Shown: positions 8,927-25,831 of the stretch, piece after piece
How positions within the stretch are numbered: position 1 is the stretch's first letter
Layout: each line of letters begins with the position of its first letter
Assembly (NCBI GenBank): GCA_003280055.1
Contig: QCGG01000004.1
Location: 113,136 to 177,135 of the forward strand
Direction of reading: 5' to 3'
Length of the DNA: 64,000 nt
From: Prochlorococcus sp. AG-363-P19
GTDB lineage: Bacteria; Cyanobacteriota; Cyanobacteriia; PCC-6307; Cyanobiaceae
The notes under the pieces: model-generated
Database searches by the model: none
What the model was told of the DNA's origin: nothing
Seen by the model: only the letters and a program-made list of their open reading frames with translations
Made by a program: the position numbers and the translations under genes

Positions 8927-9979
8927 ATGCAGACCTATGGCAATCCAAACCCAACCTACGGGTGGTGGGCTGCAAATTCTTATGTCACCAATCGGTCAGG
9001 CCGATTCATCGCCGCACATGCTGGCCATACAGGACTGATCGCATTCGCTGCTGGCGCAGCAACTCTTGCTGAGATGGCAGCCTATGACCCATCAGTACCT
9101 ATGGGTCACCAGAGCTCAATATTCTTGGCTCATTTAGCTTCCATAGGCATTGGCTTCGATGAAGCTGGTGTTTGGACAGGAGCAGGTGTTGTGACAATAG
9201 CCATTGTTCACCTTGTCTTCTCCATGGTCTATGGAGCCGGTGGCCTATTACATGGTGTTCTTTTTGAAGAGAAGACTGAAGACGAGGAGGTTATCCAAGC
9301 CCAAAAATTTAAATTGGAATGGAACAACCCTGACAACCAAACCTTTATCCTTGGCCATCATTTAATTTTCTTTGGTGTTGCCTGTATTTGGTTTGTCGAA
9401 TGGGCCAGAGTTCATGGGATCTATGACCCAGCCATAGGTGCTGTTCGTCAAGTTAATTACAACCTAGATCTAACTCAAATCTGGAACCATCAATTTGACT
9501 TCCTCGCAATCGATAGCCTTGAGGATGTAATGGGAGGTCATGCCTTCCTAGCATTCTTTGAAATAGGTGGAGGAGCCTTCCACATTGCTACAAAGCAAAT
9601 CGGTGAATACACAGAGTTCAAAGGTTCAGAATTGCTTTCAGCAGAAGCTATTCTTTCCTGGTCTCTTGCTGGTATTGGTTGGATGGCTGTGGTAGCTGCC
9701 TTCTGGTGCGCTACTAATACAACTGTTTATCCAGTTGAATGGTACGGAGAACCTTTAGCTCTTAAGTTCACAATTGCTCCTTTCTGGTTAGATACCGTTG
9801 ACCTTACTGACGGCGCCTTCTTTGGTCATACAACCAGGATGGCAATAGTGAACATCCACTATGGCCTTGGCTTCTTTGCATTGCAGGGACACCTTTGGCA
9901 TGCTTTAAGAGCTATGGGTTTTGACTTCACACGTTTATTAGACAGAAATGGTCCTTTCGGAGCAGAAAGAACTCTTTAG
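8927..9979 (+). CDS. pcb: Pcb chlorophyll a/b-binding antenna protein (copy 1)
   Basis: 350 aa. Pcb proteins belong to the CP43/IsiA family: six membrane helices that bind divinyl-chlorophylls a and b and deliver energy to photosystem I or II. Visible family signatures are the start MQTYGNPNPTYGWW, AHAGHTGLIAF with chlorophyll-ligand histidines, SVPMGHQSS, DNQTFILGHHL, and the last helix FALQGHLWHALRAMGFDF. The lumenal segment before helix V reads IATKQIGEYTEF, as in copy 3. The start is fixed by the invariant MQ(T/S)YGNP seen in all three copies. Which photosystem it serves cannot be told from the sequence alone. Confidence 0.97.
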   Translation: MQTYGNPNPTYGWWAANSYVTNRSGRFIAAHAGHTGLIAFAAGAATLAEMAAYDPSVPMGHQSSIFLAHLASIGIGFDEAGVWTGAGVVTIAIVHLVFSMVYGAGGLLHGVLFEEKTEDEEVIQAQKFKLEWNNPDNQTFILGHHLIFFGVACIWFVEWARVHGIYDPAIGAVRQVNYNLDLTQIWNHQFDFLAIDSLEDVMGGHAFLAFFEIGGGAFHIATKQIGEYTEFKGSELLSAEAILSWSLAGIGWMAVVAAFWCATNTTVYPVEWYGEPLALKFTIAPFWLDTVDLTDGAFFGHTTRMAIVNIHYGLGFFALQGHLWHALRAMGFDFTRLLDRNGPFGAERTL

Positions 9980-10050
9980 AGGACTAGGCTTTGAACTGAT
10001 TTAGTCACCCCCTAATCTCCACTGAATTGCCCAAATGGCATTTCAGCAAT

Positions 10051-10093
10051 AAAAAGAAGAGCCTCATCAGAAATGACGAGGCTCTTCTTTTTT
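10051..10093 (+). terminator. Terminator after pcb copy 1
   Basis: Perfect arms AAGAAGAGCCTC / GAGGCTCTTCTT close an ATCAGAAATGAC loop and end in a run of T. This very strong stem isolates copy 1 transcription from copy 2. Confidence 0.92.
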
Positions 10094-10126
10094 AACGTCA
10101 TAGTATTTACGGACTAGATTTACAAA

Positions 10127-10214
10127 CTAAATAAAGACCTTTAACTATTCGGTCCATATCAATTGAGCAGCTTGTAGGGTTTGGAGGATATCTTGCTTTT
10201 ATCACTTAAAAATC
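10127..10214 (+). repeat. Leader repeat upstream of pcb copy 2
   Basis: Begins with a 24-base block (ctaaataaagacctttaa...ctattc) found exactly before copy 3 at 11939-11962. Weaker similarity continues to the shared aaaaatcATGCAG at the start codon. It probably contains the promoter and 5' untranslated region, duplicated together with the gene. Confidence 0.8.
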
Positions 10215-11300
10215 ATGCAGACCTATGGAAATCCAGGTATCTCCTACGGGTGGTGGGCTGGTAATTCTGTGGTCACCAACCGCTCCGGTCGATTCATTGC
10301 CTCACATGTTGGGCATACAGGATTGATCGCTTTTGCGGCTGGTGGAAGCACCCTCTGGGAGCTTGCACGCTTTGACCCATCGGTGCCTATGGGGCATCAG
10401 AGCTCAATATTTTTAGCTCATTTGGCTTCTATTGGCATTGGCTTCGATGAAGCTGGTGTCTGGACAGGGGTAGGTGTTGCATCTATCGCTATTGTCCACC
10501 TGGTTTTTTCCATGGTCTATGGAGCTGGTGGTCTATTACATGGTGTTCTGTTTGATGAGAAGGTTGAGGACAGCAACGTCCTTCAAGCTCAGAAATTCAA
10601 ACTCGAATGGAACAATCCTGACAATCAAACCTTCATACTTGGCCACCATTTGATTTTCTTTGGTGTTGCCTGTGTTTGGTTTGTCGAATGGGCCAGAATC
10701 CATGGCATTTATGACCCTGCGCTAGGTGCTGTTAGGCAGGTTAATTACAACCTTGACCTATCAATGATTTGGCAACGCCAATTTGACTTTCTAAGCATTG
10801 ATAGTCTTGAGGATGTAATGGGGGGCCACGCATTCTTAGCCTTTGCAGAGATCACCGGTGGAGCATTCCACGTTGTTGCAGGCTCTACAGCATGGGAAAA
10901 GAAACGTCTTGGTACTTTCAGTAAGTTCAAAGGAGCTGAATTGCTTTCAGCAGAAGCTGTTCTTTCCTGGTCACTTGCTGGTATCGGCTGGATGGCGATT
11001 GTTGCTGCTTTCTGGTGTGCTACTAACACCACTGTTTATCCAGAAGCCTGGTATGGAGAAGCACTTCAACTGAAGTTTTCTGTATCACCTTATTGGATTG
11101 ATACTGGCGATCTTTCTGACAGCACTGCTTTCTTAGGTCACTCAACAAGAGCTGCTCTTACAAATGTCCATTACTACCTAGGATTCTTCTTCCTACAAGG
11201 ACATTTCTGGCATGCACTTCGTGCCCTTGGCTTCGACTTCAGCAAACTTAAGTCTGCTGTAGGAAACGAAGAAGATAAGACCTTCACCATTACAAACTAG
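10215..11300 (+). CDS. pcb: Pcb chlorophyll a/b-binding antenna protein (copy 2)
   Basis: 361 aa, six-helix CP43-like antenna protein. It is very close to copy 1 in the first 210 residues (QKFKLEWNNPDNQTF, SIGIGFDEAGVWTG). It differs in the lumenal loop before helix V, where it carries the longer basic segment STAWEKKRLGTFSKF instead of IATKQIGEYTEF. The 3' part shares a nearly identical 100-base block with copy 3, which points to gene conversion. It has its own promoter leader and terminator, so it can be regulated separately. Pcb paralogues are known to differ in photosystem partner and iron response. Confidence 0.97.
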   Translation: MQTYGNPGISYGWWAGNSVVTNRSGRFIASHVGHTGLIAFAAGGSTLWELARFDPSVPMGHQSSIFLAHLASIGIGFDEAGVWTGVGVASIAIVHLVFSMVYGAGGLLHGVLFDEKVEDSNVLQAQKFKLEWNNPDNQTFILGHHLIFFGVACVWFVEWARIHGIYDPALGAVRQVNYNLDLSMIWQRQFDFLSIDSLEDVMGGHAFLAFAEITGGAFHVVAGSTAWEKKRLGTFSKFKGAELLSAEAVLSWSLAGIGWMAIVAAFWCATNTTVYPEAWYGEALQLKFSVSPYWIDTGDLSDSTAFLGHSTRAALTNVHYYLGFFFLQGHFWHALRALGFDFSKLKSAVGNEEDKTFTITN

Positions 11301-11310
11301 ATGAGTTTTC

Positions 11311-11344
11311 GTTCCGATTGAAAACAGTTGTTTTCAATCGGAAC
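11311..11344. repeat. Perfect inverted repeat after pcb copy 2
   Basis: Arms GTTCCGATTGAAAACA / TGTTTTCAATCGGAAC, 16 bp each with only two bases between, start 10 bases after the pcb stop codon. There is no T tract, so it is not a standard terminator. It may stabilise the pcb mRNA 3' end, as REP-like hairpins do (inference). Confidence 0.8.
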
Positions 11345-11350
11345 CCTTCC

Positions 11351-11396
11351 ATCAACAGAAAAAGCCCCGAATTTTTACGGGGCTTTTTCTGTTGAT
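11351..11396 (+). terminator. Terminator after pcb copy 2
   Basis: Long perfect stem ATCAACAGAAAAAGCCCCG / CGGGGCTTTTTCTGTTGAT with a short AT-rich loop. It follows directly on the 16-bp hairpin, giving two tandem stems. A/T tracts on both arms make it able to act for the minus-strand gene at 11421 too. Confidence 0.93.
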
Positions 11397-11420
11397 GGGC
11401 TTTGTAAAAGAGGAAACTTA

Positions 11421-11651
11421 TTAGGAATTCGTCCTTTGGAGAATAGGTTGCATTATGCCACCGCCGAAATCATCATCATCTTTGTCATCGAAAAATGAAA
11501 AAGCCAATAAAAGTGCTGAGATAGGTAATATCAAAAACAATAAGGCAAGTTGTTCATTGCTTAAAACAGGCTCTAATGCACCCCAAACAGACCAAATAGA
11601 CCAGATCACGAGAAAGGCCAGAAAACTTATCGTCAAATTTGAACGCTGCAT
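11421..11651 (-). CDS. Small two-span membrane protein, hypothetical
   Basis: 76 aa. Two hydrophobic helices (about 8-27 and 33-55) are followed by an acidic DDKDDDDFGGG patch. The helix-turn-helix membrane pattern and the acidic tail make this a believable protein. The opposite frame (79 aa) is its low-complexity shadow. It sits between pcb copies 2 and 3 on the other strand. Function unknown. Confidence 0.68.
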   Translation of the reverse strand: MQRSNLTISFLAFLVIWSIWSVWGALEPVLSNEQLALLFLILPISALLLAFSFFDDKDDDDFGGGIMQPILQRTNS

Positions 11652-11699
11652 GCGCGAAATTCATAACGCTTCAGGAATAATCCCATACAACTGATCGTT

Positions 11700-11906
11700 T
11701 TGAGGTTCGGTCTTAACGAAACAGAATTGATCTCGTACGAAGCAAATCCAAATCAAAGCGATCTAGAAAATCTTGAGAGAGCCTCCATATGGGTGTTTGA
11801 AACGAATAAAAAACTCAATCAAAAGAATCATCTAGCAAAAGAGCCAAAGTATTCTCAATTAGCAAAGCATCTCAAATCCCTTTTCCACCAAGGGGTTTTT
11901 AAATAA
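11700..11906 (+). CDS. Small soluble protein, hypothetical
   Basis: 68 aa from a TTG start. The product is charged and probably helical (LENLERASIWVFETNKKL, YSQLAKHLKSLF). It has no recognised domain. It lies just upstream of the pcb copy 3 leader. Amino-acid composition looks natural, but no strong ribosome-binding site is visible. Confidence 0.42.
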   Translation: MRFGLNETELISYEANPNQSDLENLERASIWVFETNKKLNQKNHLAKEPKYSQLAKHLKSLFHQGVFK

Positions 11907-11938
11907 GTTCTCAGAAATATTAAGTTGGTCTGAATTCG

Positions 11939-12027
11939 CTAAATAAAGACCTTTAACTATTCCCACCATATGAATTGAACAGAATGTAAGGTTCGAAGGT
12001 TATTTTGCTCTTAATCTCCTAAAAATC
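11939..12027 (+). repeat. Leader repeat upstream of pcb copy 3
   Basis: Second copy of the pcb leader: a 24-base identical block followed by a partly conserved 60-base tract ending in aaaaatcATGCAG. Similar distance to the start codon as in copy 2. Probably promoter plus 5' untranslated region. Confidence 0.8.
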
Positions 12028-13113
12028 ATGCAGTCCTATGGAAATCCAAACCCCACCTATGGGTGGTGGGTTGGTAATTCTGTAGTAACCAACAAGTCAA
12101 GCCGATTCATTGGCTCGCATGTTGCCCATACAGGATTGATTGCTTTCAACGCTGGTGCTATCACCTTATTTGAACTAGCTAGATTTGACCCTTCATTGCC
12201 AATGGGCCACCAGGGGTTGATATTCCTGCCTCATCTGGCATCACTAGGCATCGGATTCGACGAAGCAGGCGTATGGACAGGTGCAAGCGTTACCTTCGTA
12301 GCTGTTTTCCACTTGATCTGCTCAATGGTCTATGCAAGTGCAGGACTGTTGCACTCACTGATTTTCAGCGAGGATACGCAGAACAGTTCAGGGCTTTTTG
12401 GACCTGACAGACCAGAGCACCGCCAAGCTGCTCGTTACAAGCTTGAGTGGGACAACCCAGACAACCAGACATTTATTCTGGGCCATCATTTGCTCTTCTT
12501 CGGCATTGCAAATATATGGTTTGTGGAATGGGCCAGAGTGCACGGCATTTATGACCCTGCAATCGAAGCTGTTAGGCAGGTTAATTACAACGTTGACCTG
12601 ACTCAAATTTGGAATCACCAATTTGACTTCCTTTCAATCGACAGTCTTGAAGATGTAATGGGGGGTCATGTGTTCTTGGCGTTCTTCCAAATTGGTGGTG
12701 GAGCCTTCCACATAGCTACAAAGCAAATTGGAGAATATACCGAGTTCAAGGGCTCTAACGTTCTCTCTGCAGAGGCAGTTCTTTCCTGGTCACTTGCTGG
12801 TATCGGCTGGATGGCGATTGTTGCTGCCTTCTGGTGTGCTACTAACACCACTGTTTATCCAGAAGCCTGGTATGGAGAGACATTGGCGCTGAAGTTCGGG
12901 ATCTCACCTTATTGGATAGATACTGTTCCTTCTATAGACGGGGCACCTCTTGGCCACACATCACGTGCATGGCTTACAAATGTTCACTACTATCTTGGAT
13001 TCTTCTTCATTCAAGGTCATTTGTGGCATGCAGTAAGAGCTCTAGGATTCGACTTCAAGCGTATTCCTAAAGCAATACAAAATGCAGACAATGCATCTGT
13101 AACTCTCTCCTAA
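12028..13113 (+). CDS. pcb: Pcb chlorophyll a/b-binding antenna protein (copy 3)
   Basis: 361 aa, the most divergent of the three in its N-terminal half (SLPMGHQGLIFLPHLASLG, SMVYASAGLLHSL). The loop between helices II and III is about 8 residues longer and contains FGPDRPEHRQAARYKLEW, where the other copies have a short acidic stretch. The central part resembles copy 1 (IATKQIGEYTEFKGS) and the next block is almost base-identical to copy 2, so the gene is a mosaic. Six-helix CP43-like architecture with ligand histidines (AHTGLIAF, FILGHHLL, IQGHLWHAVRAL) is intact. Confidence 0.97.
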   Translation: MQSYGNPNPTYGWWVGNSVVTNKSSRFIGSHVAHTGLIAFNAGAITLFELARFDPSLPMGHQGLIFLPHLASLGIGFDEAGVWTGASVTFVAVFHLICSMVYASAGLLHSLIFSEDTQNSSGLFGPDRPEHRQAARYKLEWDNPDNQTFILGHHLLFFGIANIWFVEWARVHGIYDPAIEAVRQVNYNVDLTQIWNHQFDFLSIDSLEDVMGGHVFLAFFQIGGGAFHIATKQIGEYTEFKGSNVLSAEAVLSWSLAGIGWMAIVAAFWCATNTTVYPEAWYGETLALKFGISPYWIDTVPSIDGAPLGHTSRAWLTNVHYYLGFFFIQGHLWHAVRALGFDFKRIPKAIQNADNASVTLS

Positions 13114-16616: not shown

Positions 16617-17609
16617 TTACTGGTGATCCAAGCATTGATCCTCTATAGATTTCATTCCTACCCAAGTAATCTGTCTATTGACGTCGAGATGAGCAACAAC
16701 TTCAGCATTAATCGACATTAGACTATTTTGAGGTAAAGAAACCTGAATCATTCGTATAAAATTTTCGAGTGTTTCTCCCTTAAGGGAATTGCCCTTGGTT
16801 TCCTTTAAGTGAGTCTCTTGCTGACGTTTCCAAGTAGATGTAAATTCTAATTTTTGGGCTTTTAAATGCCAAATACTTAAAAAGTACTTCCAAATAGATT
16901 CATAGGATTTCAGACAATCAATGACCTGATTTCTGTATTCGATTTCATTTTTCTGGAGAGTTTGAGCTGGTAAAGAATCAGGTTTATGGTGAGCTGAACA
17001 ACCTAAGAACCAGCCTTCAACAACAAGGATACGAGGCCTAGATAATCGCCATCCGCATCTGTCCCCAAAGCCATTTCGAAGGGATTTATCAAATCTTGGA
17101 GAAGACAAAACTCCTCTTTCCAAAAATTTATAAATAGACTCTTCTAACAGTTTTAAATCATGGCTTCCAGGTAATCCTCTAGGTACTCCCCAGGGATTGC
17201 CGGACATGGCCGTATCCAAAAGTGGTGAAGGAAGATAAAAATCATCTAGTGATACGACGCATAGCGGGAGGTTATATATAAAAGCAACATCCTCTAACCA
17301 TCTACCAAAACTGGTTTTTCCACAGCCTGGTAAGCCAGATAAACCTAATAATAAGGGATGATCATTTTTCTTCATAAGATTTTCCACTTTGGTTAGAAAA
17401 GGGAGACCCAAACCCCAAAACCAATCTGCTCTTGTACCTTTAGGCCAGAATTCATAAATAAAATCTGAGGCCTCCTTCTTCATCCAATATTCATACCATT
17501 TAATTGGATCGTCCCACCCAAGAGCCCTAATAAATTTCTCAAATTCACCAAAATTAAATTCAATCTGATGATGATAGGGTCTAAGTAGATTGTAAAGAGT
17601 GTCAGTCAC
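16617..17609 (-). CDS. glxK: D-glycerate 3-kinase
   Basis: 330 aa plant/cyanobacterial-type glycerate kinase that makes 3-phosphoglycerate from D-glycerate and ATP. The P-loop GLPGCGKT is at 92-99, followed by the family segment VVSLDDFYLPSPLLD and the NPWGVPRGLPGSHD motif characteristic of this P-loop kinase family; ILVVEGWFLG follows. It is the last gene of a three-gene operon with gpgP and the GH13 phosphorylase (7-base gap). In the cell it would finish photorespiration; in this operon it can also recycle glycerate released from glucosylglycerate. Confidence 0.93.
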   Translation of the reverse strand: MTDTLYNLLRPYHHQIEFNFGEFEKFIRALGWDDPIKWYEYWMKKEASDFIYEFWPKGTRADWFWGLGLPFLTKVENLMKKNDHPLLLGLSGLPGCGKTSFGRWLEDVAFIYNLPLCVVSLDDFYLPSPLLDTAMSGNPWGVPRGLPGSHDLKLLEESIYKFLERGVLSSPRFDKSLRNGFGDRCGWRLSRPRILVVEGWFLGCSAHHKPDSLPAQTLQKNEIEYRNQVIDCLKSYESIWKYFLSIWHLKAQKLEFTSTWKRQQETHLKETKGNSLKGETLENFIRMIQVSLPQNSLMSINAEVVAHLDVNRQITWVGMKSIEDQCLDHQ

Positions 17610-17616
17610 TAATCAC

Positions 17617-18417
17617 CTAGAATTCCTGATACATTTCAGTAAAAAATCTTTTAACAGAACAAGCCCATCCTTTTGCGTGACTTTCTTTAGCTGAGAGAAA
17701 TTTACCTTGGGTAACATGTTCTCGAAAAAAAGGGTTAATGCCGTTCTTACCAGGGACAACAATTGAACAATCAGCTGCTTGTAAAAGGTGCATGTCATTT
17801 GGAGAATCACCTAAAGCAAGAACTTTTACATTTGGGACCTTTAAATATTTTTTAAGGTGGCGAAGAGCAGTTCCTTTATTGGTATTATTACTTATAAGAT
17901 GACTCATTAAGTTTCCTCTTAAAACCATCGTTCCAAATCCATTTGCTGATTCTTCAATTTTTAGTATATATTCAGAAGGAGGAGTCAAAAATGGTACGCT
18001 CCATAATCTTTGCTGAGCAAGTTTTATAGATTCATTCTTAAGGCCAGTTAGCTCGTGTACCTCTATCGGGTTTAGATCCTTAAAAGAAATCAACCTATAA
18101 TCTATTTTTCTTGATATGTGGTCAAGGATAGGCCTAAGTTCCTTATAACTTAAGCCTAGAGGCAATTCCCAGGAACCACCGTTAGTGTTGTCACCATAGA
18201 TTGCTCCTCCATTCTCAACAATATATGGATCCTTAAACCCGTATTTACTCCTAAAATGATTCACCTCGGCTTCTGTCTTACTAGTACAAGGAATAACCGG
18301 AACACCAATCTCTTTAAGCCATTGCAATGTACCTAAAGCTGGTTGAATATCATAGTTATGGTCCAACAAAGTACCATCCAAATCTGTAACCACCCACCAG
18401 TCAGTAATGGAAGTCAT
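17617..18417 (-). CDS. gpgP: Glucosyl-3-phosphoglycerate phosphatase (MPGP-type HAD)
   Basis: 266 aa HAD-superfamily phosphatase of the mannosyl-3-phosphoglycerate phosphatase group. The nucleophile motif TDLDGTLLD has Asp12 and Asp14. The conserved second part is PVIPCTSKTEAEV, followed by the family motif YIVENGGAIY. The metal-binding motif IV is LALGDSPNDMHLL. Because gpgS lies in the same locus, the substrate is most likely glucosyl-3-phosphoglycerate, giving glucosylglycerate. Three bases separate it from the upstream phosphorylase stop, and seven from glxK. Confidence 0.9.
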   Translation of the reverse strand: MTSITDWWVVTDLDGTLLDHNYDIQPALGTLQWLKEIGVPVIPCTSKTEAEVNHFRSKYGFKDPYIVENGGAIYGDNTNGGSWELPLGLSYKELRPILDHISRKIDYRLISFKDLNPIEVHELTGLKNESIKLAQQRLWSVPFLTPPSEYILKIEESANGFGTMVLRGNLMSHLISNNTNKGTALRHLKKYLKVPNVKVLALGDSPNDMHLLQAADCSIVVPGKNGINPFFREHVTQGKFLSAKESHAKGWACSVKRFFTEMYQEF

Positions 18418-18420
18418 AAA

Positions 18421-20163
18421 TCAGATTAATCTTTTAAACCAATAAACTTCATAGGGATCTATGCAAATTGACTGTTTCCGGTATTCTACATCAACTAATA
18501 TATCTTGCCAAATCTGTGATGCTAAAAGATTATTTGAAATGCATAGATCATTTAGATTAAGCATAATTTTTTTATCTGTAAAATTATGTACTGCAATAAT
18601 TTGATCGTATTCAGAGCCTCTTGCTATTATGACTAAATCATCGCTGTTAATACTTAAACATTTCATAGGAGATTCAGGGTGAAATGCTATATTTTTTGAT
18701 CTAATTGACATTGCAGAGTTTAAACAATCTAAAGAATATGATTCCTTAGTATTTGGATTGTCAAGGCAAATGCGTAATTGCTCGACATTAAATCTTTGGC
18801 GGTTGATGTCACGCCTCTGACCAGTATTACGATAACTAACATTGTCATTAGTAGAGGCTAATATTGCTTGAAGATAAAATGCTGGGACTCCTTTCAATGA
18901 CATAGTAAGGATTTGACTTAATTTAAATCGGGAAAACTGATAACTGGAACTATTCTCATTACTATCAGACATTGCACTCCACCAACTTATATTGATTTCA
19001 TAAGGTTCATCTTTACCATTAACATTAGATCTGTGACTAATCATTCCCCCACGTTGCTCGCAAGCTATTAATAAATTTTTTAATCGTTTATTATCCATAA
19101 TCCCTCGAACAGCTTGAAGACCAATACCATCATGGCTAGATGTAAAATTAAGTAGTGAAGTCTCCTTAGGTAAATCAGGCCATACCATTAACAATTGATT
19201 AATTAAATCACACTTGTTAGTAATCAACCCTTCAAGAAGTAAAGGTGGCAAGGGGAAGTTGTAGACAATATTGGCTTCATTACCAGACTTCAGATAGGAA
19301 AGATTGTCGCGCTGGGGAACATTTGTTTCAGTAACAAGAACCGAATCAGGAACCAGATTCTTTATCAAAATTCTAAAAACTTCTACTAACTTGTGAGCCT
19401 CTTCTAAATGAATACAAGAGGTTCCAGCCTCCTTCCAAATAAAACCAACCGCATCCAATCTTATCCATTTAACACCATTTTGAACATAACATATAATAAG
19501 TTCTAGGAACTCAATTAACAGATAAGGGTCCTTCCAGTTGAGATCTATCTGATCAGGGCCAAAAGTAGTCCAGACTGGTCTAAATCCGTTATTAGTTTGC
19601 AACTTGCAAAATAACGGAGAATTTCGGGGCCTAAACACTTTTTCCCAGTTATCATTTAATGAAGGGGAAAGAATGAATGATTTTCCGGGCGCTTCTCCTT
19701 TCCTAAATTGCTCCACCCAAGGATGAGAGGAGGAAATATGGTTAAGCACAAGATCAGCCATGATTATATGATTTTTGCCAAGTATATTAAGGTCCACCCA
19801 GTCTCCAAATTTCTTGTCTATTGATTTATGATTAGAAACAGCAAAACCTCCATCACTTGTTGATTCTAAAAAAGGTAGTATATGGACTATTGAGGAAAGA
19901 TTGCACATTTTATGATTTATAATATTAGTCAATATATTTAAAGAGGGCTTATCTAAACCAGAAATAGCATCTGGGTATGTAATTAAAACTGCTGTAGAAG
20001 AATCCCAAATAGAATTATCGACTAATTTTCCAGTTTCCCTATTTAATTGGTTTTCTTCGATAATCTGTATTAATTTTGACCATAACGATTGAATTTCATC
20101 ATCAGAATGATTCTTATAGATCTCTATGAGAAGGTTCTTTAATTGTTGTAGCTGATTTGACAC
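18421..20163 (-). CDS. GH13 subfamily 18-type sugar phosphorylase, probable glucosylglycerate phosphorylase
   Basis: 580 aa sucrose-phosphorylase-like protein. GH13 catalytic regions are visible: ADLVLNHIS (region I, 136-144), WIRLDAVGF with nucleophile Asp237, VLVTETN with acid/base Glu279, and TSSHDGIGL with Asp345. Family members use phosphate to cleave a glucosyl donor to glucose-1-phosphate. Some have been shown to act on glucosylglycerate rather than sucrose. The operon with gpgP and glycerate kinase and divergence from gpgS argue for glucosylglycerate as substrate. Sucrose or glucosylglycerol remain alternatives. The first gene of the operon; its 76-base promoter region is shared with gpgS. 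Confidence 0.85.
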   Translation of the reverse strand: MSNQLQQLKNLLIEIYKNHSDDEIQSLWSKLIQIIEENQLNRETGKLVDNSIWDSSTAVLITYPDAISGLDKPSLNILTNIINHKMCNLSSIVHILPFLESTSDGGFAVSNHKSIDKKFGDWVDLNILGKNHIIMADLVLNHISSSHPWVEQFRKGEAPGKSFILSPSLNDNWEKVFRPRNSPLFCKLQTNNGFRPVWTTFGPDQIDLNWKDPYLLIEFLELIICYVQNGVKWIRLDAVGFIWKEAGTSCIHLEEAHKLVEVFRILIKNLVPDSVLVTETNVPQRDNLSYLKSGNEANIVYNFPLPPLLLEGLITNKCDLINQLLMVWPDLPKETSLLNFTSSHDGIGLQAVRGIMDNKRLKNLLIACEQRGGMISHRSNVNGKDEPYEINISWWSAMSDSNENSSSYQFSRFKLSQILTMSLKGVPAFYLQAILASTNDNVSYRNTGQRRDINRQRFNVEQLRICLDNPNTKESYSLDCLNSAMSIRSKNIAFHPESPMKCLSINSDDLVIIARGSEYDQIIAVHNFTDKKIMLNLNDLCISNNLLASQIWQDILVDVEYRKQSICIDPYEVYWFKRLI

Positions 20164-20239
20164 TTAATTTTCTACCCGTCCTTTACTATTGTGCTTACAC
20201 ATTGGGACAAACGCATAGTTTGGTATCACTAAACACCAA

Positions 20240-21451
20240 ATGGACTTTCAACAGGGACTTATAACAACGATTCATAATTACGGAATTTTCGAAGATTCGT
20301 TAGCAGAATTGTGTTCTGGATTAAAAAAACGGCCAACATCACTTTTGATACCTTGCCTTTTTGAAGAGTTCAAACGCCCTGCACTAGTTAGAATTAAGGA
20401 AGTAGTTCAAGAACTGAAGGGCCTTGACAAGCTTGTAATCGCATTGCATGCAAAATCTGTAAGTGAAGTAGAGGAAGCAAAGGTTTTTTTTGATGATATG
20501 CCATTCCAAGTACATGTGCAGTGGACAAATAGTCCTGCGGTTCTTGAGCTTCTAAAAACCCATGAGAAAAATGGCTTAATTTTATATGGAAAACCTGGCA
20601 AAGGATGGGCAGTTTGGCAAGGCATCGGTATTGCCACTATGAGCTCAGAAGTAATAGCTCTATTTGATGCAGACATTCGAACCTTTAACCCTTCATACCC
20701 CGCAAGGATGTTGAGCCCATTACTTGATGCTTCCGATGGAATTTCATATGTAAAAGCTTTTTACAGCAGAATCTCCTTAGAAAAAAACCAACTTCAAGGA
20801 AGAGCCACCAGATTATTTGTTGGACCACTGTTAAGTGGTCTGGAACAATTATTTGGGGATCTTCGTTATCTAAAATATCTCCAGGCTTTTAGATATCCAC
20901 TGTCTGGAGAATTTGCATTTTCAAAGGGCTTGGCGATGAATTTAAGAATCCCATGTGATTGGGGTTTGGAGATTGGTCTTTTATCGGAGGTTTTTAGGCA
21001 TGTTTCAACTACTAAAATTGCACAGGTTGATTTGGGTTTATTTGACCATAAACATAAAGAAATTGGTAATACAAAAGAGGAGGGTTTACAAAGGATGTGC
21101 TCGGAAATATTTGCTAGTGTTATAAGAGGACTTATGGAACATGAAGGCCAGACGCTAACACAGTCTCAATTAGCAACGTTAGAAGTACTTTATCGACGAA
21201 TAGGAGAAGATAGAGTAAGGCAATTTGGACTTGACTCTATAGTTAATCACCTTCCATATAATAGACATGAGGAAGAACTTAGTGTCCAAACATTTGGTTC
21301 TCTTCTCAAACCTTCTATGCAAACTATATTGAGCAGCCCATCATCGGAACAACTGCCATCCTGGTCAAGAGTACTAAGCTGCGAAAGCAATTTGCAAGAA
21401 GATTTAGCCATTGCGGGAACAAATATAAATAATCACATCTTCATAAATTAA
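20240..21451 (+). CDS. gpgS: Glucosyl-3-phosphoglycerate synthase (GT81)
   Basis: 403 aa GT-A glycosyltransferase that joins NDP-glucose and 3-phosphoglycerate. The DxD-type metal site is ALFDADIRTF (Asp143, Asp145), and the segment GKPGKGWAVWQGIG precedes it as in other GpgS proteins. Later conserved parts are FRYPLSGEFAFSKG and DWGLEIGLLSEVF. Glucosylglycerate is known as a compatible solute in Prochlorococcus and other marine cyanobacteria, favoured when nitrogen is scarce because it contains none. Divergent from the degradative operon with 76 bases between start codons, so synthesis and breakdown can be controlled from one intergenic region. Confidence 0.94.
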   Translation: MDFQQGLITTIHNYGIFEDSLAELCSGLKKRPTSLLIPCLFEEFKRPALVRIKEVVQELKGLDKLVIALHAKSVSEVEEAKVFFDDMPFQVHVQWTNSPAVLELLKTHEKNGLILYGKPGKGWAVWQGIGIATMSSEVIALFDADIRTFNPSYPARMLSPLLDASDGISYVKAFYSRISLEKNQLQGRATRLFVGPLLSGLEQLFGDLRYLKYLQAFRYPLSGEFAFSKGLAMNLRIPCDWGLEIGLLSEVFRHVSTTKIAQVDLGLFDHKHKEIGNTKEEGLQRMCSEIFASVIRGLMEHEGQTLTQSQLATLEVLYRRIGEDRVRQFGLDSIVNHLPYNRHEEELSVQTFGSLLKPSMQTILSSPSSEQLPSWSRVLSCESNLQEDLAIAGTNINNHIFIN

Positions 21452-24589: not shown

Positions 24590-25831
24590 TCAATTTTGAT
24601 AGTTTAAACTTTTGAAGAAAAATGTAATTATAGACATACATAGCAAAGACATTATTAGCCATAAATGAAAAGCATGGGAATTAGTATCAAGAAACCATCC
24701 TGAGAATAATGGGACAAGTAATGCTGTTATTGCAAAGCACTGAGAGAAAATTGCTATTGAAAGTCCTCTTTTGTTAGCAGGTGTCAAATCGATTACTGCT
24801 TGAGTCGCTGTAGGAAGGAATGCTGCCAATCCAATTGAAAAGAAAACTTGTGAAAAGAAAATGATAAAAACTCCGTTTTTAAAAAGAGCTGAAAAAGCGA
24901 CAAGAAAACATCCAAACCCTAAACATAAAAGACTAAGGACCAATCCAAATCTTATCTTTCGGTCTGCCAGCCACCTGCCTAAGGGCCACTGAAAAATTAC
25001 TAATAAGAACAATTGAATGCTAATAATAGATCCACTAACAGCTTCACTTAGAGGCGGTCTTTCTAGACCACCTCTAACCATATCTAGTGGCAAAGTACTC
25101 TGCAACATTGCAAAAATACCCGTTGCCACCAAACTAATAACTAAAATCGGGAAAAGAGCTATGTACCAAGTAGGCTTTTCTGGTGAAATAGAACTATATT
25201 TATTCTCCTTAAAAGATATTCTTTCCCTTTTGGGCCACTCCGCTAATTTACTTTTGGAGAAGATATATAACAAGGAGATCATGCAAATAGCATCGAAAAA
25301 ATAAACAAGTCTAATGAATCCAATAATTGCACCAATTGTTCCTAATAGAGCTCCCAGAGCCATTCCTAAAGCATCTGCACTCCTTACCAGTGCGTAACCT
25401 CGCCGGGAAGAGAATTTGTCGCAACTAAGACTTACAGCCAATTCAGCTGCGGGCCAATAAATTCCTGCAGCGAAACCTATTAGCAACTGACCTAATAAGT
25501 AAGAGCTGAATTCATCTGCTCTGACCAAGGAGAAATCAGCCAATAGAGTAAAAAGGCAACTAAAACCTATAAGAAAAGAGCAGGAAACCTTACTATCAAG
25601 AAGAAAACCACTAAGAAACCTTGAGAATGTTCCTACCAATGCAGCAATTGCGATTCCAACTCCAATTTGAGAAGCATCAAAACCAAACTGGTTAAATGCC
25701 ATTGGTGTTAAATAAATAACGCCACCTGCCCCCAAAGAAGCCAATACACGGACTCTTGTAATCATCTGAAGAGCAACGGGAAACTGGCCCCACCAACTCC
25801 ATGGATTCAGCTTTTCTACTAAGAAAGTCAA
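24590..25831 (-). CDS. Major facilitator superfamily transporter
   Basis: 413 aa, about 12 hydrophobic helices. The first half has LSGFLLDSKVS between helices 2 and 3, and PLGRWLADRKIRFG is the equivalent loop in the second half, an MFS duplication mark (G-x-x-x-D-R/K-x-R/K). Substrate unknown; related cyanobacterial proteins are usually annotated as drug or sugar efflux. The TTG start overlaps the divergent DUF1400 gene by 31 bases; an ATG at 25765 (MITRVRVLASLG) would remove the overlap, but NPWSWWGQFPVAL upstream looks coding. Confidence 0.88.
   Translation of the reverse strand: MTFLVEKLNPWSWWGQFPVALQMITRVRVLASLGAGGVIYLTPMAFNQFGFDASQIGVGIAIAALVGTFSRFLSGFLLDSKVSCSFLIGFSCLFTLLADFSLVRADEFSSYLLGQLLIGFAAGIYWPAAELAVSLSCDKFSSRRGYALVRSADALGMALGALLGTIGAIIGFIRLVYFFDAICMISLLYIFSKSKLAEWPKRERISFKENKYSSISPEKPTWYIALFPILVISLVATGIFAMLQSTLPLDMVRGGLERPPLSEAVSGSIISIQLFLLVIFQWPLGRWLADRKIRFGLVLSLLCLGFGCFLVAFSALFKNGVFIIFFSQVFFSIGLAAFLPTATQAVIDLTPANKRGLSIAIFSQCFAITALLVPLFSGWFLDTNSHAFHLWLIMSLLCMSIITFFFKSLNYQN

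Follow-up and report, generated by a model that had tools for sequence, protein, structure and literature searches.

Glucosylglycerate (GGA) metabolism has already been described in Prochlorococcus strain NATL2A, which harbors a "glucosylglycerate metabolism operon" for the recycling of GGA to glucose-1-phosphate and 3-phosphoglycerate, with transcripts that shift as separate synthesis and recycling sets (Coe et al. 2024, PMC11631117). In NATL2A, GGA is a major solute (Klahn et al. 2010, as cited in PMC11631117); Coe et al. considered a reserve role without favouring it, and raised the uptake of external GGA. A salt response has been reported for gpgS and gpgP in NATL1A and for gpgS in AS9601 (PMC9606707). 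The 2-O-glucosylglycerate phosphorylase (GGaP, EC 2.4.1.352), described by Franceus et al. 2017 (as cited in the review PMC7178133), is recognised by a (T/S)ETN motif at the acid/base strand and a Glu in loop A, and its gene frequently lies beside genes for glycerate kinase, GpgS or GpgP (PMC7178133). The GGA operon of Prochlorococcus and its recycling role are therefore not new.

The window analysed here is a DNA stretch of 64,000 nucleotides from a genome of 1.78 Mb whose relatives are Prochlorococcus. As in NATL2A, it combines gpgS, ggaP and gpgP with the glycerate step at a single locus; a putative transporter gene is immediately adjacent in NATL2A, whereas none is present at the window locus. 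The gene for glucosyl-3-phosphoglycerate synthase, gpgS (20240..21451, plus strand, 403 aa), diverges from three minus-strand genes: ggaP (18421..20163, 580 aa, GTG start), coding for a GH13_18 GGaP, gpgP (17617..18417, 266 aa), coding for a glucosyl-3-phosphoglycerate phosphatase of the HAD-IIB MpgP family, and glyK (16617..17609, 330 aa), coding for a plant-type D-glycerate 3-kinase (GLYK). The minus-strand genes are separated by only 3 and 7 bp, and the 76 bp between ggaP and gpgS (20164..20239) are the sole promoter space for both gene sets. When the open reading frames were rechecked, the coordinates given in the first-pass annotation for the four genes and the gap proved exact. It had also remarked that gpgP is grouped with ggaP and not with gpgS; this holds here and in the relatives and, as gpgP follows ggaP in Synechococcus as well, it is a general feature. 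The four-gene divergent layout is not due to chance, as it recurs in all 30 nearest relatives and is also found on 44 named Prochlorococcus contigs, including those of MIT 9302 and MIT 9201. Taken with the gene identities, motifs and distribution read from the sequences, this locus very probably represents the Prochlorococcus GGA operon, with a full make-and-recycle cycle, an old gpgS-ggaP core and a general-purpose glyK captured once. Transfer of the locus by phages was rejected, as no match was found among 50,697 phage records. Elsewhere in the window, three tandem related open reading frames of 350-361 aa (8927-13113) resemble the Pcb/IsiA antenna family and may belong to it.

The distribution of the core was followed in a family sample of 200 genomes, each at least 85% complete, where a true ggaP was called at E below 1e-100. 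Such a gene is present in 96 of the 200 genomes; it adjoins gpgS in each of the 96 and was in no case found without gpgS. Full-length gpgS without ggaP occurs in a single genome of the sample, G058, where a broken remnant of ggaP lies between gpgS, itself intact, and gpgP-glyK (L067:6600-7400); this lineage may make GGA without its phosphorolysis. Another genome, G017, has a decayed gpgS beside glyK. As judged from these genomes, gpgS and ggaP are an old and inseparable core pair in picocyanobacteria. The tie between gpgS and a phosphorylase gene is thus confirmed across this group, and it argues for routine turnover of GGA over a static osmolyte.

GpgS matches NF040724 with an E-value of 7e-113 over 392 of 402 positions, at 377 bits against a model cut-off of 700; similar scores are obtained for the orthologues tested from Synechococcus and from LLI-type genomes, and the best structural match is the GpgS structure 4y6n (E 2e-15). 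GpgP belongs to the HAD-IIB MPGP subfamily (TIGR01486, 264 bits, cut-off 165) and lies below every MPGP equivalog cut-off, with PDB matches to 1xvi (E 5e-25) and to the MpgP structure 3ztw (E 2e-21); from its GpgS partner, we infer that it acts on glucosyl-, not mannosyl-3-phosphoglycerate. The best PDB matches of GLYK are D-glycerate 3-kinases (7xpc, E 7e-15, and 6ckg); it has no Pfam or NCBIfam family match, conserves the P-loop GLPGCGKTS, and is predicted to be a plant-type enzyme forming 3-phosphoglycerate. No biochemical test of these enzymes or of their Prochlorococcus orthologues was found in the literature searched.

On established biochemistry, the four steps form a closed cycle leading from NDP-glucose and 3-phosphoglycerate through glucosyl-3-phosphoglycerate and GGA to glucose-1-phosphate and D-glycerate, and back to 3-phosphoglycerate. 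GpgS would join NDP-glucose to 3-phosphoglycerate and GpgP would dephosphorylate the product to GGA, while GGaP would cleave GGA phosphorolytically, giving glucose-1-phosphate and D-glycerate, the latter being returned to 3-phosphoglycerate by GLYK with ATP. Because the four steps close on 3-phosphoglycerate, the GGA pool could be built up and used again with no loss of carbon, the price being ATP and a nucleotide sugar. An MGH-like hydrolase (PF22422) as GGA sink was ruled out in the six genomes tested, window genome included, none of which encodes a member of this family; no other known GGA sink was thus found in the window genome.

The assignment of GGaP, on which the draining of this pool would depend, is well supported by its signature residues and its tree placement. 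The catalytic residues are kept (Asp in RLDA, Glu in TETN and Asp in HDG, with the motifs at residues 235, 278 and 344), and TETN is invariant across 11 aligned homologues, among them E. coli YcjM. Loop A reads DEPYE, with the expected Glu, versus DLYQ, DVHQ and AIYQ (Gln) in the phosphorylases of sucrose (SP), sucrose-6F-phosphate (SPP) and glucosylglycerol (GGoP). The protein shares 33% identity with YcjM over 531 residues (E 1e-107); YcjM is named glucosylglycerate phosphorylase in RefSeq, and an enzyme from E. coli is listed in the review as a strict GGaP (PMC7178133). Sucrose phosphorylase is the nearest named NCBIfam family, and the same genome encodes a sucrose-phosphate synthase, so that sucrose can be made and the operon could in principle mobilise it also or instead, through this or another GH13_18 specificity. 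This reading is highly improbable and, for sucrose phosphorylase, was rejected on motif, score and tree alike: the match to TIGR03852 (E 7e-42) reaches only 144 bits where 334 are required, the protein has TETN and PYE and lacks the loop N(L/V)D(I/L/V)YQ of SP, and YcjM is far closer to the window protein than the sucrose phosphorylases are. In a small GH13_18 tree (22 rows, with PDB references as aligned stretches only and a Meiothermus taiwanensis homologue in place of the M. silvanus GGaP), the window protein groups with YcjM, while SP, SPP and GGoP form a separate group on the opposite side of a 100/100 branch. The glucosylglycerate phosphorylase proposed at first pass is therefore upheld by motif, tree and gene context together.

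If the enzyme is a GGaP, its direction in the cell and the origin of its substrate can still be read in other ways. GGaP can run in both directions (Km for D-glycerate, 1-5 mM; PMC11009771), and the window genome has glcD and glcF, which makes photorespiratory glycerate plausible; the enzyme could thus mainly synthesise GGA from glucose-1-phosphate and D-glycerate, as a second route capturing that glycerate. We regard this as quite improbable, because GLYK, encoded next to it, would draw on the same glycerate, recycling and synthesis genes of NATL2A shift in opposite directions (PMC11631117), and glcD is missing from 43 of the 46 genomes that have glyK in this operon, a count that ignores phylogeny and in which most of the 43 belong to one group. 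It is also unlikely that the gene set serves to import and consume GGA coming from neighbours and not to manage the cell's own pool, as suggested by Coe et al. for the dark-tolerant NATL2A, where a transporter gene is adjacent and recycling transcripts are raised in co-culture (Coe et al. 2024, PMC11631117). An LLI-type relative has a gene for a TauE/SafE-family membrane protein next to gpgS (L081:4111-4881), perhaps the transporter mentioned by these authors. However, this gene is absent from that position in the window, no transporter adjoins either end of the operon, the nearest one being an MFS protein 3.1 kb away on the other strand (24590-25831), and no genome of the family sample keeps ggaP without gpgS. 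The MFS gene is kept in the sister genome G020. Phosphorolysis of GGA made by the cell itself is the direction and physiological role that we infer from these comparisons.

The history of glyK differs from that of the core. The gene is present in a single copy in the window genome, and scans run family by family found no further glycerate kinase, either GarK/GlxK or class II (PF02595, PF13660); it is the only recognisable glycerate kinase of this genome. It is present in 191 of the 200 family genomes and outlasts the loss of the other GGA genes. In Synechococcus G061 and in MIT9313-like genomes, including G047, glyK lies away from ggaP, beside a gene identified by eye as FtsH-type. The glyK tree separates kinases of this ancestral locus from all operon and orphaned kinases (split 98/95), which fits one relocation; the gene would have moved once from the ftsH-linked locus into the GGA operon, in the ancestor of the main Prochlorococcus clade. 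In G001, gpgS has a DUF2079 gene as its neighbour; in G033 this gene is immediately next to glyK, with order and orientation unchanged, which would fit a deletion of gpgS, ggaP and gpgP. Moreover, G013, G016 and G032 keep glyK in the absence of both glcD and the GGA genes; GLYK must therefore have a further source of glycerate, and survival of glyK solely because of GGA is refuted as a general rule. The four-enzyme cycle of the first-pass annotation thus closes on paper, but its view of glyK as a dedicated member does not stand: by its distribution, GLYK is a general kinase, since its gene is near-universal, persists without gpgS and ggaP, and lies elsewhere in the ggaP-bearing Synechococcus checked. 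In G036, which has neither gpgS nor ggaP, the neighbours of glyK are two GH13 genes and genes that look, on inspection of their sequences, like glycerol kinase and glycerol-3-phosphate dehydrogenase (L070, 7513-14956).

A glycerate kinase is expected as the last enzyme of photorespiration. Scored as present at E below 1e-60, glcD is missing in 51 of the 200 family genomes, 43 of which carry the operon with glyK, whereas it is present in 48 of the 50 ggaP genomes in which glyK is not part of the operon; this association is confounded by descent. In the 12 genomes tested, glcF follows glcD. An independent study reports that MIT9312 lacks glcE, glcF and phosphoglycolate phosphatase (PMC9723591). 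The window genome retains both glcD and glcF and, by this gene content, its GLYK probably handles glycerate from photorespiration as well as from GGA salvage. We tentatively propose that the sole glycerate kinase was captured once by the GGA operon and that the most abundant lineages later lost glycolate dehydrogenase; in these, the end of photorespiration would survive mainly as GGA salvage; the window lineage and G010, with a captured glyK and with glcD and glcF kept, would be intermediate. This history would tie GGA to the disappearance of glycolate recovery by photorespiration from phototrophs that rank among the most abundant, and the window lineage would have both systems sharing one kinase.

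The divergent gap measures 71-81 bp in nearly all relatives compared, and 111 and 173 bp in two. An element of about 20 nt ends directly at the gpgS start across Prochlorococcus and Synechococcus (L078, L079, L082, L096 and others), reading TTCTGTTGCACT-A--ACCGA in the relatives and TGTTGTCGCACTGATCAC in Synechococcus. In 20 genomes, the mean information is 0.98 bit per site at positions -20 to -1 of gpgS versus 0.35 at -40 to -21; the corresponding position in the window (20218..20239, plus strand) has diverged. A coding upstream extension of gpgS was rejected as the cause of the element, as stop codons were seen by eye directly upstream in HL and LLI relatives, and so was a structured gpgS leader (folding z of -1.31 and 0.19, not significant). 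NtcA control was also rejected, since the only NtcA-like match in the window gap, GTA-N8-CAC, is not kept in the relatives and no conserved site is present in the gap across them. The sequence thus offers no evidence for nitrogen control, nor does it for the carbon-reserve role proposed at first pass. Joint control of both gene sets from the 76 bp is no more than a reasonable guess.

GGA is probably one of three nitrogen-free solutes that the window genome can make, since a sucrose-phosphate synthase and a glucosylglycerol-phosphate synthase (ggpS, G000:C4:57871-59310, on the same contig outside the window) are encoded as well. In the genomes tested, ggpS is absent from the HL-type, LLI-type and MIT9313-like representatives and present in all four GGA-less relatives, as if one solute replaced the other.

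Compared with known systems, the window GGaP shares GH13_18 membership, TETN and the loop-A Glu with the enzymes of Meiothermus silvanus and Spirochaeta thermophila and with YcjM, although the gene of the latter lies in a sugar-uptake cluster without gpgS. A plasmid cluster of Leisingera methylohalidivorans (L181) has adjoining genes for GGaP, GpgS and an MpgP-type phosphatase, but there gpgP follows gpgS, convergent with ggaP, and glyK is lacking. This cluster (L181:3971-7734) lies next to urease genes, and its genes are annotated just as sugar phosphorylase, glycosyl transferase and HAD hydrolase. Marine Synechococcus has the same divergent gpgS and ggaP-gpgP core with a similar short gap (G061, L082), whereas its glyK is located elsewhere, beside ftsH (L083). 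The system of NATL2A, in the same organism group, likewise combines GGA synthesis and recycling genes in one operon; an LLI-type relative (G035) lacks glcD and glcF, unlike the window genome, which has both. With respect to the literature searched, what would be new is a single capture of glyK before the loss of glcD and glcF, with the window lineage as an intermediate.
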